A stretch of DNA of 64,000 bases from an uncultured Sulfitobacter sp. (GTDB lineage Bacteria; Pseudomonadota; Alphaproteobacteria; Rhodobacterales; Rhodobacteraceae): contig CANMXJ010000021.1 in the NCBI GenBank assembly GCA_947501805.1, positions 1 to 64,000 of the forward strand, given 5' to 3'. The notes under the pieces were generated by a model, which made no database searches, was not told where the DNA came from, and was given only the letters and a program-made list of their open reading frames with translations. Within the stretch, counting starts at the first letter, position 1. The number at the start of each line of letters is the position of its first letter. Positions 49,038 to 63,993 of the stretch are shown piece by piece. A program made the translations under genes and the position numbers.

Positions 49038-50045
49038 TCAAAGCCCAAGTGCTTTTTTGGTGCCCAACTTACCCGCACACCACAGCAACACAAGCGGCCC
49101 CACAACACCGATGCCGACCGCCGCCAACAGATGAACGCCTAAGGACGTAATGTCCAAGGACAGGAGTCCAATCCGCGCGGCCGCCGAAAAGATCGTATGC
49201 GCCAGATAGATAACAAGAGAGGTCTGCCCCAGATAACGCAACATGCGGATTACCGGGAGAGGCTTGTGCGTATTGCAATCAATACGTGCAAGCATGATCC
49301 AGATGAGAAGAACCAATACCAAAGAGTTCAGAACCGAACCCCATCCCATCAAGCCGCAAAACAACAGGAAAACGATACCGCACGCGGCAGCAAGTGCCAT
49401 CCACAACGGCGGACGGACAGTAATCAAACCAGCGAAGCCGACACCCGCAATATAATAGGGGAAATGCGCAATCGCCGGATCAAAAAAAGATGAGCCAAAA
49501 TGAATCCAAGGAATGCATAGCGCAGAAACAAGCGCGCAAGCCGCACATATGATCCTAAATGTCCCTTCCTGAACAACGGGTCGCAATCCGAGGTAAAGAA
49601 ATAATACTACCAGCTGGACGAGTAAAAGCGCCCATAAGAACCACAGATGCTCATATGGCGGGAATGGATTTATCGGGAAATCCGAGAGCGTTACAGGATG
49701 ATTTGCAGCAGAACCTGCTAACAATCTGACCGCAAAAAATATCCACGTCCAAAGGGCGAAAGGCCAAAGCAACCTCACCAAACGGCTAAAAAAGAAATCC
49801 GATGCGGTCATATTACGGATCACATCCAGAAACAGCACACCTGTCAGAAAGAAAAAGATCGGCATATGCCATGCGTAGATCATCTGATCAATTGTGTTGA
49901 ACAATATTTCATTGTGCAGAACACCAGCGTCAAAACTACCACGCCAGGCGTGTCCAAATACAACAAAAAGAATCGCAATGCCCTTGGCCGTATCAATCGC
50001 GTGTATGCGTCCGCCATCAGCAATCCGTTGATTACCGGTCTTCAT
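49038..50045 (-). CDS. acyltransferase-3 family membrane protein (OafA/NolL-like)
   Basis: 335 residues with about ten TMs. The catalytic region [19 protein letters not shown] (N-terminal, conserved His) and [16 protein letters not shown] fit the acyltransferase-3 family, which O-acetylates sugars and cell-surface polymers in the inner membrane. It sits between rpmD and rplO, where most bacteria have none, and is more A+T-rich than its ribosomal neighbours, suggesting a later insertion. Confidence 0.85.
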
Positions 50046-59163: not shown

Positions 59164-60006
59164 TTAGCGTCCCTTCTTCTTGGCGTGGCGCGATCTGATG
59201 ATCAGACTGCTTGACGCTTTTTTCTTGTTCCGGGTTTTTGCACCCTTTGTCGGCTTGCCCCATGGGGTAACCGGGTGACGACCACCAGATGTCCGGCCTT
59301 CACCACCACCATGCGGGTGGTCGATCGGGTTCATCACGACACCACGCACAGACGGGCGGATGCCCTTGTGACGCATGCGGCCCGCTTTACCGTAGTTCTG
59401 GTTGGAGTTGTCAGGGTTGGACACGGCACCAACGGTGGCCATGCATTCCTGACGCACGAGGCGAAGTTCACCACTGCTCAGACGGATCTGGGCGTAGCCA
59501 CCATCACGACCAACGAATTGGGCGTAAGTACCGGCGGCACGAGCAATCTGACCACCCTTGCCGGGCTTCATCTCGATGTTGTGGATAATTGTACCGATAG
59601 GCATGCCAGAGAACGGCATTGCGTTACCGGGCTTGATGTCGGCCTTGGCCGATGCAATCACCTTGTCGCCCACTGCCAGACGCTGAGGGGCAAGGATATA
59701 GGCCTGCTCGCCATCTTCGTACTGGATCAGGGCAATAAATGCTGTCCGGTTCGGGTCATATTCGATCCGCGCCACAACAGCGGACATGTCCAGCTTGTTG
59801 CGCTTGAAATCAACGATACGGTAGAGGCGCTTTGCACCACCACCTGTTCGACGCATTGTGATCCGTCCGGTGTTGTTCCGTCCGCCCGATTTCGTCAGAC
59901 CCTGAGTGAGGGCCTTAACGGGACGTCCTTTCCAAAGCTCCGAACGGTCAATCAGTACCAGCCCACGCTGGCCCGGCGTCGTCGGTTTGTACGACTTGAG
60001 TGCCAT
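59164..60006 (-). CDS. rplB: 50S ribosomal protein uL2
   Basis: 280 residues: [40 protein letters not shown] and the conserved peptidyl-transferase-associated [18 protein letters not shown]. Usually rplW precedes rplB directly; here the upstream 300 bases hold a terminator and no gene, so rplB starts a transcript. A TATAAA about 50 bases upstream on the minus strand could be its -10 (no good -35 found). Confidence 0.98.
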
Positions 60007-60307
60007 GTTGTGACTTTCCGTTTTGCTTGCTGCCGCCCGCTAGGGGAGGCGTGGTTTATAGGCCCCCGTAGGTGCCCGATTGTGTGTCCTTAACGAACAA
60101 TGACAAAGCCCCAGACGAATCTGGGGCTGTGCCGATGGGGTCGTTTAGGGGGGATGGGGGTGAGGGTCAAGGGAAGAAGCGACTCAACTTTCCTACTTCG
60201 TTCCCTGCAAAATACACCACAGAGAAGAGCTGCCCGAACTCTATCCTTTGGACGGCAAGAAACACAATAAGTTCCTCCCAATCAAATAGTCATCCCATGG
60301 TCGGCGT
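60007..60307. other. 301-base gap upstream of rplB
   Basis: Contains the terminator at 60103-60128 and, closer to rplB, the presumed promoter. rplW, rplD, rplC and rpsJ are absent between here and the right edge. Confidence 0.5.
60103..60128 (-). terminator. terminator upstream of rplB
   Basis: AGCCCCAG (60107-60114) pairs with CTGGGGCT (60121-60128) around ACGAAT; TTTGTCA follows on the minus strand. It would stop transcripts coming from the right, separating rplB from whatever lies upstream; possibly the original end of an rpsJ-rplW transcript. Confidence 0.7.
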
Positions 60308-61301
60308 CTATGCGCGAGTCTTTGAGGACGCTGCCAAGTTTCGACTTATCTCAACAGCTTGATCCACCGGAGAACGAACCGGTTTCCCAAAATCTAGGTT
60401 ATCTGGGGACATTGCGCGAATGAATTCCGCTAGCTCACTTACTCCCATCTGTCGACCATCTATAATGGCAAGTTCAAGTACATCTGCCCGCGCATTATAA
60501 AACGCAGCTAGCCGAGTACTGTAACGGAAAAGATTAACCAATATCTGAACAAGAAAAATCATCAATACGATGACTCCGATTCTCAGAACTGTCGCCTTCG
60601 TAAAACTGAACCAGTCTTGAGCCGCAATTGAGGATTGAACTTTGTTAAATTGCCGAACTGAGTTGTCAAACCTTACCTGACTGGCCTCCAGAATATCAAT
60701 AAGTGCTTGTAAGGATGAAACGCTCGGACCAGCTTCTACCAATCCGTCTGCCATTAATTGGAGGCTTGACGTAGTACTTTCCATTTGTTGTCTGGTCCTA
60801 TCTAATCCACGTTCGAACTGTTGATTAACCCTTGTCGCAAGTGATTCATCTAACGTGACGACACTTGGTTCTGACAGTTTTAGGACTGGGAAAACCACTT
60901 CTTTGGAACTTGTCAAATCAACAATCGTATCCTCAAAATCTGATGTTAAGCGGTCGGTTGCCTCAATACATGTCGAACTATTCGTGAAATAGGAGTCGCT
61001 TTTTCGTACTGATTTCAAGCACTGATGCATGGAATGTAAAAGGGAAACCAACTCTTGAGAGTCCGAGACTGAATAAGACCCGTACTGCACAGCAACCTCC
61101 AACTCCCAGTCTGAAATTTCTTGCCGCCAAGTTTCAATGTTAGCATCACTTATATTATTAACTTTCTGGATTTCAGCAATACCTGTAGCGATGGCAGTTT
61201 CGACTTCTGGAAGAAAGTCATCAACCGCGCGTTGCTGTTCGTCGAATGTCACACGAATATTGGAACTGATCTCCTTGTAAGCTCCAAAAGTAGCAATCAA
61301 A
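60308..61301 (-). pseudogene. 3' part of a two-TM membrane protein gene split by the transposon
   Basis: Minus-strand frame ending at 60308. Excluding codons contributed by the transposon, it encodes about 327 residues: a helical, acidic, periplasm-like domain with two Cys (MHQCLKS, SSTCIEA), a TM (VLRIGVIVLMIFLVQILVNL) and a 60-residue cytoplasmic tail. Joined to the fragment at 63762-63993 after removing the element and one 8-bp duplication copy, it gives a continuous 405-residue protein with TM1 at 21-41 and TM2 at about 313-333, reminiscent of sensor or chemoreceptor-like membrane proteins without a signalling domain. No family recognised. Confidence 0.8.
61294..61301. repeat. target-site duplication, left copy
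   Basis: CAATCAAA directly outside the left inverted repeat; identical to 63762-63769. Eight bases is the usual duplication of IS1595-family elements. Confidence 0.9.
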
Positions 61302-61325
61302 GGCGATTGTATACTTGACAAACCC
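61302..61325 (+). repeat. left terminal inverted repeat of the transposon
   Basis: 24 bases; matches the reverse complement of 63738-63761 except for C/T at 61314. Confidence 0.92.
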
Positions 61326-61370
61326 AATGCCAAAGCGTAGTTTAATCTCAACAAGTTAGAGGTTATTCCA

Positions 61371-62351
61371 ATGTCCGTTCTTTCCGCCCCATACATGCAC
61401 GATGAAGCAGCAGCCTTTAAGCACGTTGAAGCGATGCTTTGGGGCGACGCGCCGATCTGCGCGCACTGTGGCGTTGTGGATAGCGCCTATCCCCTCACAG
61501 GCGTTCGCACCAAGGCATCCGCCAAGAACCCAGAGGGCAAAGAGCGCCACGGCCTGTGGAAGTGCCGCGAGTGCCGTAAGCAGTTCACCGTCCGCAAGGG
61601 TACGATCTTCGAGGAAAGCCACCTTCCGCTGCACCTGTGGCTTCAAGCCATTCACCTGATGGTGTCCAGCAAGAAGGGTATCAGCAGCCACCAACTGCAC
61701 CGCGTTCTGGGTATCACCTACAAGAGCGCATGGTTTCTGACGCACCGCATCCGCGAGTGTATGCGTGGTGGCGCACTGGCTGGCTTCGGTAGCGGCGGCG
61801 GCATTGTAGAAGTGGACGAAACATTCATCGGCAAAGAGCCGGGCGTTGTGAAGCACCCCAAGGCGCGTGGCGGCTCTCACAAGATGAAGATGCTGACGTT
61901 GGTGGATCGCACCAGCAAACGCGCCAAGTCTATCGTTATTGATGATCTGAAAAAGACAACGCTGATCCCGATCCTGCAAGAGAACATCGCCAAGGGAGCC
62001 TATGTCATGACGGACGAAGCCCGCCAGTATCAGGATATTGGTGCTGGCCGCGTGTTTGACGCACACGGCTGGACCAACCACAGCGCAGGCGAGTATGTGA
62101 ACCTTGAGGATCGCGAAATGCACACCAACACTGTCGAAGGCTTTTACAGCATCTTTAAGTGCGGCATGAAGGGCGTGTATCAGCATTGCGGCAAGCAGCA
62201 CCTGCATCGCTATGCTGTTGAGTTTGACTTCCGTTACAACAATCGCATTGCGAACGGTGTAGAAGATGTCGAGCGCGGTCAGATTGCGCTGCGCAGCGTC
62301 GTCGGCAAACGCCTCACATACCGACGGGCTGACGAAGAAATCCAACACTAA
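61371..62351 (+). CDS. IS1595-family (ISXO2-like) transposase
   Basis: 326 residues. N-terminal zinc ribbon C30-x2-C33 and C65-x2-C68 (ICAHCG, KCRECRK). Helix-turn-helix region near 103-125. ISXO2-type catalytic core with D149 (EVDETFIG), D215 (MTDEARQ), and the N253/E256 region in MHTNTVEGFYS, followed by a Tyr-rich RYNNRIANG end. Copy-and-paste/cut-and-paste DDE(N) type for its element. A 330-codon frame on the other strand is a shadow. Confidence 0.93.
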   Translation: MSVLSAPYMHDEAAAFKHVEAMLWGDAPICAHCGVVDSAYPLTGVRTKASAKNPEGKERHGLWKCRECRKQFTVRKGTIFEESHLPLHLWLQAIHLMVSSKKGISSHQLHRVLGITYKSAWFLTHRIRECMRGGALAGFGSGGGIVEVDETFIGKEPGVVKHPKARGGSHKMKMLTLVDRTSKRAKSIVIDDLKKTTLIPILQENIAKGAYVMTDEARQYQDIGAGRVFDAHGWTNHSAGEYVNLEDREMHTNTVEGFYSIFKCGMKGVYQHCGKQHLHRYAVEFDFRYNNRIANGVEDVERGQIALRSVVGKRLTYRRADEEIQH

Positions 62352-62503
62352 ATCTTGATGGATTCACTTTTCTAGTGACAGATTCCACAACATATGCGAA
62401 GATTCATCGTGTGGGATACGTCGGAACTCCCCCTTCGCGGATGCGCTATGACGCATTGGCACTTGGTCTTACGGTTGCACACAGGATTGCAGCCTTGCGG
62501 GGG

Positions 62504-63385
62504 TCATGGACGAGGGGCCGAGGCCCACACACTCGAAAAATCGTAGCCATAGTGTTCAAATACGTTTTTCTGGACACTGGATAGCTTAGCCTTGAATGGT
62601 GGTGTTGGCTGTAAAATAACACCTTCATCAGCCGCTGATCCATTGAGCCTAGCCATCTTTGGCAAAAGCAATTTTGCGGGTGCCGGATCGTTTCGCACCT
62701 CCAATACGTCAACGGCTTGATAAAATGCGCTGGCGACAACGTCGGCCAATTGCAGGTCCGCAACTGAGGTATGGGGAACATAGTCAACTAGATTGAAGCG
62801 CAAAACTTGATGCCTGATTTCCCTCCTTCTGAGGAAAGTCGTTTCAGACGCGGCTTGCGCTTTCAGGTGCTCCCAATAGGCCTTCGTTTGACCGTATTCA
62901 TGTCCACCGCGTTGGCTGAAAACCACCTTCTGGTATCTTGGCTCTTTGTATCTTTTGAGGCTGTCCTTAAGACACAGATCGGTCACTCGCTCCATCAAGA
63001 AGCGAACGCAAAAATTATAAAACCATTGCTTCCCGCCCATTACTTCCGCACGCTCGTTTCTCCAGCCCCGCATGTTCTTCTTGTTTGAGCAAACCGCAAA
63101 GCAGACAACTTCCTTTTCGGCTATCATCTGGCAAGCGCGCGACTTCTTTGTCGGCGACAGATTTCTGAAGTGTAGTGCGGGGCCTTGCTTCGCGTTAATA
63201 TCTTCGCGGATACCCCTAACCCAATCCACAACTTTGCTCTCGTTGTTATGCCGAACTAGCACGCCAGAGATCACTAGCCACTCAGTCGCACCCACGCTAT
63301 CTATGGGGCGAACACGTTTTAGGCCATCATCGCCAGCCTCATCAATGTATAGAACGTATTCGTAAGGATTTGATATATTGGACAT
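62504..63385 (-). CDS. DUF3800 protein (cargo)
   Basis: 293 residues. DUF3800 signatures: YVLYIDEAGDDGLKR with the acidic pair near residue 16, LHFRNLSPTKK, and LQLADVVASAFYQAVDVLE with the third acid. This is an RNase H-like fold expected to be a nuclease or related metal enzyme; several relatives are found near defence genes. Encoded on the opposite strand to the transposase, convergent, 152 bases from its stop. Role as selfish cargo versus host benefit is unknown. Confidence 0.85.
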   Translation of the reverse strand: MSNISNPYEYVLYIDEAGDDGLKRVRPIDSVGATEWLVISGVLVRHNNESKVVDWVRGIREDINAKQGPALHFRNLSPTKKSRACQMIAEKEVVCFAVCSNKKNMRGWRNERAEVMGGKQWFYNFCVRFLMERVTDLCLKDSLKRYKEPRYQKVVFSQRGGHEYGQTKAYWEHLKAQAASETTFLRRREIRHQVLRFNLVDYVPHTSVADLQLADVVASAFYQAVDVLEVRNDPAPAKLLLPKMARLNGSAADEGVILQPTPPFKAKLSSVQKNVFEHYGYDFSSVWASAPRP

Positions 63386-63390
63386 TCGCT

Positions 63391-63546
63391 ATGGAAACAC
63401 CTGACGCTAAACAGAGTCAACTAGACCGCTTCAAAGAAGCCGCCCGTGAGATCGGGACGGACGACGACGAAGCGAAGTTCAACGAAAAGCTAGGCGATCT
63501 GGTGAAGCAGAAGCCCTTGGACAAGAAGGACTGCGATGATGAGTGA
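63391..63546 (+). CDS. small acidic protein of the transposon cargo
   Basis: 51 residues: METPDAKQSQLDRFKEAARE, then IGTDDDEAKFNEKLGDLVKQ and a Lys/Asp-rich end. Divergent from the DUF3800 gene with only five bases between starts, so they share a promoter region. Overlaps the next gene. Resembles small companions of such elements; function unknown. Confidence 0.6.
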   Translation: METPDAKQSQLDRFKEAAREIGTDDDEAKFNEKLGDLVKQKPLDKKDCDDE

Positions 63547-63736
63547 ATTCAAGCGACCAGAGTGGGGCAGTCAAGACCCCGAAGAAAGCTATCGTTCGGG
63601 ATATCAAGATGGGGCGCTGGCCGCGTTACAAGCTGTAGAATCCGGCATGACGACGGACGAATTGAAACATTGGACCGACGTTAAACTTCAAAAATGGCGG
63701 CATGACCGGAGCGCCTTCCCTACGCCCCCAAAGTAA
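63536..63736 (+). CDS. small protein of the transposon cargo
   Basis: 66 residues (ATG at 63536 or 63539): PEESYRSGYQDGALAALQAV and MTTDELKHWTDVKLQKWRHD. Overlaps the previous small gene by about 11 bases; ends 2 bases before the right inverted repeat, so the element is tightly packed. No family named. Confidence 0.6.
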   Translation: MMSEFKRPEWGSQDPEESYRSGYQDGALAALQAVESGMTTDELKHWTDVKLQKWRHDRSAFPTPPK

Positions 63737-63737
63737 C

Positions 63738-63761
63738 GGGTTTGTCAAATATACAATCGCC
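63738..63761 (-). repeat. right terminal inverted repeat of the transposon
   Basis: 24 bases, reverse complement of the left end with one difference. It contributes the stop codon of the truncated 5' gene fragment (frame ends at 63745). Confidence 0.92.
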
Positions 63762-63769
63762 CAATCAAA
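63762..63769. repeat. target-site duplication, right copy
   Basis: CAATCAAA, identical to 61294-61301. Confidence 0.9.
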
Positions 63770-63993
63770 GCGGAGATACCATCCTGGATATCAGTTAGCC
63801 GCACTGGAACTTCATCTCTTATCGCATCAACTTCTTGTGTGGACGCACTAATACCCCTTTCTGAGATTGTGTTAGCATATACGAGAAACACCCCTCCTGA
63901 AACAATAATCATGGTGATAAGAACTAGAACCATGTTGGCTTGGCGCTGCCGAACTCCGGCTCTTTTTCGAAGCGATTCAACTATTTCATTCAT
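63762..63993 (-). pseudogene. 5' part of the split membrane-protein gene
   Basis: Begins at ATG 63993: MNEIVESLRKRAGVRQRQAN, then a TM (MVLVLITMIIVSGGVFLVYA, residues 21-40) and a charged segment running to VRLTDIQDGISALI, where the transposon enters. With the element present the frame runs 4 codons into it and stops at 63745 (82 codons in all). Completed by 61293-60308. Positively charged N-terminus suggests N-in topology. The start could lie beyond the right edge, though this ATG fits. Confidence 0.8.

Follow-up and report, generated by a model that had tools for sequence, protein, structure and literature searches.

Some subgroups of the IS1595 family of insertion sequences (ISs) carry passengers, and family elements with passenger genes were reportedly described by Siguier and colleagues in 2009. 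The DUF3800 motifs are said to originate with Weinberg and colleagues in 2017; RNAs associated with DUF3800 are catalogued in Rfam, and the literature consulted gives no established function for them. According to published work, IS1595 members of Ralstonia measure 700-1,287 bp (PMC7371123), those of Xanthomonas and Ralstonia measure about 1,000 bp with one open reading frame (ORF) (PMC11092175), and DUF3800 appears as an RNase H-fold protein accompanying some CRISPR effectors (PMC10910872, PMC12669027). The locus that we compare with these systems lies in a stretch of 64,000 nucleotides (nt) from an uncultured Sulfitobacter sp., a marine bacterium (contig CANMXJ010000021.1, positions 1 to 64,000; hereafter "the window") and is an IS1595-family transposon in which a DUF3800 gene faces a structured small RNA (sRNA). 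We consider it somewhat probable that the cargo of this DDE transposon, a pair made up of a predicted RNase H-fold nuclease and an sRNA, would serve as a maintenance or defence module. The presence of both protein and RNA on one 2.5-kb transposon suggests joint action and offers a natural minimal construct.

A preliminary description of the stretch had reported a precise IS1595-type cargo transposon splitting a membrane-protein gene, its span (60308-63993) taking in the element and the split gene together. The features of the element are as follows.

61302 to 63761, plus strand (by the transposase): IS1595-family transposon, 2,460 bp (inverted repeats, target duplication, homologous ends in 63 elements including this one)
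61302 to 61325, plus strand: left terminal inverted repeat (repeats finder; kept in relatives)
63738 to 63761, minus strand: right terminal inverted repeat (repeats finder; kept in relatives)
61294 to 61301, no strand: left copy of the target duplication CAATCAAA (sequence reading)
63762 to 63769, no strand: right copy of the target duplication CAATCAAA (sequence reading)
61371 to 62351, plus strand: IS1595 transposase, 326 aa, zinc ribbon and DDE domain (Pfam, invariant residues)
62375 to 62403, plus strand: weak, putative promoter-like pair GTGACA-17-GAAGAT just upstream of the RNA (position of the -10 element)
62408 to 62532, plus strand: structured RNA of about 125 nt, divergent DUF3800-VII relative (covariation, covariance-model searches, Rfam)
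62504 to 63385, minus strand: DUF3800 protein, 293 aa, predicted RNase H-like nuclease (Pfam, structural model, Foldseek, invariant residues)
63391 to 63546, plus strand: conserved protein of about 51 aa (hidden Markov model [HMM]; 62 of the 63 elements of the group)
63536 to 63736, plus strand: second small ORF, 66 aa (ORF list; does not cluster with any other cargo ORF at E 1e-3)

The insertion is confirmed. The 24-nt terminal repeats pair at 23 of 24 positions (96% complementary), the sole difference being C/T, and the two copies of the 8-bp duplication are exact and abut both ends of the element, which is present in its own genome as a single copy at the DNA level. The transposase matches DDE_Tnp_IS1595 (E = 5e-30; 104.9 bits against a cut-off of 27) and Zn_ribbon_IS1595 (E = 8e-11; 42.3 bits against 25.4), and the D of VDE, the D of TDE, and the E of VEG are unchanged in all 58 aligned transposases; the zinc-ribbon transposase, the 8-bp duplication, and the terminal inverted repeats together place the element in the IS1595 family. 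Excision of the element with one copy of the duplication restores a single frame of 1,218 nt, comprising 405 codons and a stop, as the preliminary description had claimed, and the transposase, DUF3800, and small ORFs sit where it had put them; its view of a cargo-bearing unit that splits a gene is borne out by the element anatomy. The interpretation given there is partly supported; we find the interest of the locus elsewhere, in a previously unannotated RNA beside DUF3800 and in the cargo-bearing group to which the element belongs.

The gap between the transposase and DUF3800 genes contains noncoding sequence conserved in genomes G038 and G434, and the RNA within it is convergent with DUF3800, overlapping the last 29 nt of that gene in antisense. 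Bounded by its closing stem, this segment folds like three relatives. In a plain MAFFT alignment of four sequences (A5), read with the fold of one of them, 90.6% of cells are paired, and of the 43 pairs 21 differ on both sides; covariation is 0.543, compared with 0.239 for shuffles and a maximum of 0.151 on sliding. With nine diverged loci fitted to a covariance model, an alignment that for this reason leans to the model, 89.9% of cells are paired, 32 of 42 pairs are changed on both sides, and covariation is 0.651 against 0.241 in shuffles and at most 0.146 when slid. In each of eight RNAs the sense strand has the more stable fold, and at distant loci the Rfam model lies on the same strand as the RNA. 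Folding z scores with comparative boundaries were -2.49 for the window, -4.62 for L222, -4.37 for L223, -2.18 for L225, and -2.19 for L088; folded as a single sequence, the entire convergent gap showed nothing unusual (z of -1.09 and 0.01). In 7 of 11 loci the end of the -10 element lies 4 to 6 nt upstream of the RNA, a range that was set after inspection of the promoter-score results, and single-base shuffles averaged 0.66 such loci, with 7 reached in 0 of 1,000. An additional hairpin is present in the window-type RNA, and in seven of nine copies its loop terminates in GGAT.

The distribution of the RNA was followed with a model built from four sequences (R1) and two later models (R2 and R3), all with rough E values and mostly at loci selected for DUF3800, the less biased scans being those of 81 sources and 60 genomes. 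Over the 81 sources (817 kb), R1 found only the window, L003, and L051, all of them seed copies. Over 71 further sources (373 kb, many selected for DUF3800), it found ten places at E < 1, three of them seeds; the nonseed matches L224, L090, L225, L089, L088, and L170 (the same place as L088), which amount to five further DUF3800 loci, fell at E < 1e-4, and L091 was matched at E = 0.026. R2, run over 60 whole genomes under strict filters, no more than 58 candidates being scored in any one of them, gave three matches at E <= 1, each at the stop codon of a DUF3800 gene (G000, G018, and G022), and R3 without filters added L231, L093, L232, L234, L233, L230, and a Rhizobium phage (L260). In 18 chosen loci, 11 of which are R3 seeds, all 18 matches at E < 0.1 are convergent with the DUF3800 gene and fall in the range from 40 nt upstream of its stop codon to 8 nt downstream of it; a copy on a Cupriavidus plasmid (L261; E = 0.38) fits the same placement, and L239 (E = 0.36) does not. 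The pairing of DUF3800 with the RNA is thus conserved across loci. No match was found for the exact motif in viral contigs or by distant blastn searches of the gap in plasmids, and with up to three mismatches the motif occurs in 2 of 394 family genomes (its own and G434).

These data bear on a purely regulatory reading, in which the RNA, as a bidirectional terminator or a convergent antisense transcript, would curb read-through between the transposase and DUF3800 genes and play no part in what the protein does. Its tail-to-tail position between convergent genes, with the 29-nt overlap here, is what such a regulator would be expected to have; the RNA is also found, however, at DUF3800 genes around which the fetched sequence shows no transposase (L223, L224, L088, and L089), its multibranched fold, with the 32 covarying pairs of 42, goes far beyond a terminator, and 10 of the 18 RNA copies do not overlap the DUF3800 gene. 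We regard this explanation as quite unlikely.

A known Rfam RNA inside the element was considered and rejected, there being no Rfam match at the RNA even at E <= 10; the other eight members of alignment A8 have no Rfam match at the RNA at E <= 1. At 9 of 11 loci given to Rfam, DUF3800-VII (RF02967) scores at or above gathering at the same spots, with L230 just below and the window-type L090 without a match. R1 and R2, both built without DUF3800-VII members, nevertheless reach DUF3800-VII loci called by Rfam, namely, L091 (E = 0.026 and 0.037, respectively) and L228 (E = 0.0019 with R2), and through these links structure, position, and strand are homologous to those of DUF3800-VII. Judged from these model matches, therefore, the window RNA is an enlarged, divergent DUF3800-VII relative with an extra hairpin; we do not assign it as a member of that family because it falls short of the RF02967 gathering score.

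The RNA-DUF3800 pair accompanies IS1595 transposases in the window, G038, G434, and G442 (the last judged by its transposase), and in G070 it lies in an apparently decayed element that retains transposase residues 294-324 and a match to the small protein. It occurs without a transposase in the fetched stretch in G349, G369, and G022; it is also present on a conjugative plasmid, where the match is weak by R3 and strong by Rfam. In G018 (L255, 7353-9605) the pair adjoins the gene for a phage integrase, and a phage lysozyme is encoded a few kilobases off, as in a prophage cargo position, and in the Rhizobium phage it lies beside a putative S24 repressor gene.

The protein partner matches PF12686 above the gathering score (E = 5e-10; 40.6 bits against a cut-off of 21), all 13 aligned proteins share residues D15, Y123, and D215, and most of the 50 Foldseek matches listed are RNases H or reverse transcriptases; a sequence search against solved structures returned none at E <= 0.1. 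Together with its RNA, DUF3800 might form a guided or RNA-scaffolded nuclease complex directed against foreign nucleic acid, rather than an addiction pair. The place of DUF3800 as an RNase H-fold accessory in some CRISPR loci (PMC10910872, PMC12669027) and the position of the module beside a phage integrase in G018 and in the Rhizobium phage are compatible with such a complex, but by eye the aligned RNAs contain no guide-like variable single strand, no search for arrays having been made, and we consider this account unlikely.

The wider group was assembled from a transposase scan of genome contigs, which gave 233 relatives, of which the best 80 were kept, and from loci added by genome searches. 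A transposase match was present in 110 loci, and 105 remained once five repeats (L001, L083, L086, L087, and L095) had been dropped. Both ends could be closed in 63 of the 105, with the window's element counted as L002, and L026 and L027 being two copies in one genome; the remaining 42 could not be closed at both ends, many of them because the fetched stretch stops too early. The 63 resolved elements have 53 exact 8-bp duplications, 4 with one mismatch, and 6 nonmatching (two of the six cut by the locus edge), a count that is biased upward by the partial use of the duplication in picking the right end; the exact duplications are 83% A+T. The preliminary description had proposed the ends of other copies as a check, and the ends of relatives do fall at homologous positions; with the duplication exact in 53 of 63 elements at homologous ends, the insertion anatomy is therefore more than chance. 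The resolved elements measure 1,989-3,829 bp and extend 1,023-2,809 bp past the transposase match. No bare IS was found among the 63, and the right end was sought onward from the end of the transposase, so that a bare copy would have been detectable. The window's element thus belongs to an IS1595 group in which passenger DNA separates the transposase from the right end in every resolved member. A published account of the element group or of the RNA variant was not found in the passages searched, which is weak evidence of absence, most subscription papers lying outside the search.

Pfam was run on 140 cargo ORFs (of at least 85 aa) and, as a control, on a random sample of 140 out of 433 ORFs from the flanks of these loci, a set that excludes L027 and loci in reverse orientation and whose single-member families are only partly listed. 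Among the cargo ORFs were 14 with DUF3800, 10 with SocA/Panacea, 6 with PIN, 5 Cas2-like (best E only 1e-5), and 4 with DUF1828, together with single members such as GmrSD, AlbA, DndB, and GIY-YIG; none of the recurrent cargo families reached two members among the 140 control ORFs. DUF3800 is cargo in 15 of the 63 resolved elements (clusters 1, 20, and 21, by Pfam on representatives; split or short in L030 and L058), always on the strand opposite the transposase. Compared with the window's protein, 11 of 12 aligned cargo proteins are 13-24% identical and one is 65% identical; this low identity makes it probable that DUF3800 was acquired several times. In one DUF3800-bearing IS1595 element, L073, an Rfam match to C4 antisense RNA, a phage-type regulator, was seen at 1786-1972 with a weak C4-target match below gathering.

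The ~50-aa protein is the near-constant component of the group. An HMM built from 24 members detects it in 62 of the 63 elements (the 24 seeds being among the 62), with L103 the one element without it, and in all 62 it is encoded on the transposase strand, downstream of the transposase, at 30-45 nt past the transposase match in three elements and at 770-2,602 nt in the others. Differences by codon position (2555/2172/4832) point to a selected reading frame, and its distances correlate with those of the transposase (r = 0.77; 0 of 2,000 permutations; n = 58). Of the 190 class genomes 7 contain it, as do 10 of the 62 from the genus, its own genome counted in each; in 18 regions, covering 19 of 20 places outside the window, the transposase adjoins the small protein in 15 and does not in 3 (L158, L159, and L162), and the L169 region has a transposase fragment without the small protein. 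A Pfam search with 55 members gave nothing convincing (best E = 0.0089; one family recurs in six members, best E = 0.014), and a predicted structure of two low-confidence helices (predicted template modelling score [pTM] 0.29) was not used. The stretch at L158 (G053:C29:55000-60000) has a gene for the small protein and one of the group's inverted repeats, with no transposase within the stretch, and is perhaps a nonautonomous or decayed element.

The start of the small-protein gene overlaps or abuts the last same-strand cargo gene in several elements, an arrangement that would suit an antitoxin or immunity protein for the varied cargo rather than a component of the transposon. Yet the small protein is constant while the cargo varies, tracks the transposase over deep distances, and in the three elements with the shortest spacing lies ahead of the cargo; this interpretation seems improbable to us, and we infer that the protein serves the transposon, in transposition or regulation, and not any one cargo. 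Another view would be that of an ordinary IS1595 element with meaningless chance passengers. Passenger-carrying elements of the family are, after all, already known, but the absence of any element without cargo among the 63, the small protein in 62 of 63, and the recurrence of a set of cargo families run counter to chance loading, which we disfavour as very unlikely.

We return to a maintenance or defence module on a DDE transposon. By the anatomy of the locus, the element went into an AT-rich 8-bp site, presumably through the activity of its own IS1595-family transposase; the site was duplicated and the membrane-protein gene broken. Its cargo is a two-part module consisting of DUF3800, with its predicted RNase H fold, and a separate RNA of about 125 nt that is read towards it; the RNA, presumably expressed, may bind DUF3800 and control its nuclease activity. 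The pair may in this way keep the element in the population, through toxin-antitoxin-like maintenance or phage defence, roles that are suggested by the other cargoes of the group. A broader proposal is that these minimal transposons, in Rhodobacterales and other Proteobacteria, are obligately loaded, the transposase and constant ~50-aa helper framing a slot in which small, self-contained modules are exchanged; one such module would be a ribonucleoprotein of DUF3800 and the enlarged DUF3800-VII-type RNA that is toxic to cells when they lose the element or else degrades incoming foreign nucleic acid. We find this proposal doubtful, and put it forward tentatively. Separately, the cargo-bearing IS1595 group with its near-universal small protein raises the question of how a tiny transposon keeps differing cargo between constant ends.

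A number of results weigh against the module as we read it. The folding energy is not unusual in three of the eight RNAs (z of -1.21 for L168, -1.36 for L224, and -1.36 for L089), and the best -35/-10 pair is weak by score, 127 of 200 shuffles being as good here; the promoter score beats most shuffles only in L224 and L090 (9 and 6 of 200 as good). At E < 0.1 the RNA is present at 16 of 35 DUF3800 loci outside the window and missing from 19 (G038 read as L168; some loci cut by contig ends), and model searches gave no RNA match beside the closest DUF3800 (L221, G479; 67% identical). Among the 15 resolved DUF3800-bearing elements the RNA was found only in the window and L051 (L003, whose right end is not resolved, also has it): an unfiltered R3 search had no match below E = 1 in L008, L009, L028, L037, L041, L062, L069, L073, and L082, searches with default filters only did not find it in L030, L058, L063, and L075, and Rfam detected no DUF3800 RNA in those other DUF3800 cargo elements. 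The predicted model of the DUF3800 protein is modest (mean predicted local distance difference test score 65; pTM 0.69), and the best Foldseek match, the RNase H2 complex 3puf, has an E value of 2.6e-3, with none at or below 1e-3. PADLOC gave no match in ten neighbours of stand-alone pairs and no enrichment for defence in the cargo, with 54 matched families against 98 in the control flanks, and within close relatives the small protein tracks the transposase weakly (r = 0.19; 22 of 2,000 permutations; n = 38).

The target gene and its surroundings comprise the following features.

63770 to 63993, minus strand: interrupted membrane-protein gene, 5' part (ORF list, flank joining)
60308 to 61301, minus strand: interrupted membrane-protein gene, 3' part, one duplication copy included (ORF list, flank joining, relative search)
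60011 to 60077, minus strand: L2 ribosomal-protein leader RNA before rplB, context outside the element (Rfam RF03142, E = 6e-8)
59164 to 60006, minus strand: rplB, context (Pfam Ribosomal_L2)

Beyond the window lie rplW, rplD, and rplC, identified from ORF sequences, so that the split gene stands between rplW and rplB. From window 60006 to contig position 67515, the rplW-rplB interval spans 7,511 bp; its length is variable in this genus, measuring 401-3,369 bp in 18 of 20 congeners, the other two having no rplW match within the ~10.5 kb taken. The preliminary description had looked to an uninterrupted homologue of the joined 405-codon gene in relatives, and there it fared less well, none being found and matches being confined to the C-terminal part. 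Leaving its own genome aside, the C-terminal piece finds matches in two of the 144 relatives and seven of the 344 family genomes, G081 being in both sets, over about 70-130 residues near the C terminus; the N-terminal piece had no significant match at the seven family loci compared (best E of 0.21; an eighth locus, G120, lay outside the comparison). By these comparisons, the split gene looks lineage specific, and the absence of a joined relative does not refute the insertion, because the insertion rests on the duplication and the restored frame.

Several further observations were made in this neighbourhood. The L2 leader RNA directly before rplB could permit its separate transcription. Two more ORFs lie between rplW and the split gene (L002, 6798-7517 and 7990-8733), one of which has, by eye, a VPLPA-type C-terminal sorting-like tail, the other being, also by eye, membrane-protein-like. 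Within the ribosomal-protein cluster, the ORF at window 49038-50045 resembles a membrane acyltransferase, by eye only.

Four known systems invite comparison with this locus. With the IS1595 family the element shares its transposase domains, the 8-bp duplication, and inverted repeats that start with GG, but its group differs in a length of 2.0-3.8 kb, in never being bare among 63 elements, and in a near-constant extra small protein. Like the 90-nt DUF3800-VII sRNA of RF02967, the window RNA is placed at the DUF3800 stop on the convergent strand and has closing stems, whereas it is 125 nt long, has an extra hairpin, and lacks an Rfam match at E <= 10. The DUF3800 accessory nucleases of some CRISPR loci (PF12686) share with the window's protein a Pfam match above the cut-off and a tentatively predicted RNase H-like fold; the window's protein, in contrast, is encoded on a transposon with an sRNA, and no CRISPR gene was seen in the element in the ORF and Pfam scan. 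Finally, transposons that bear toxin-antitoxin genes, such as members of Tn3, likewise have a small addiction-type cargo on a DDE transposon, whereas the window's element is a single small IS-like unit of a group with differing cargo, and its module combines a protein with an RNA, not two proteins.

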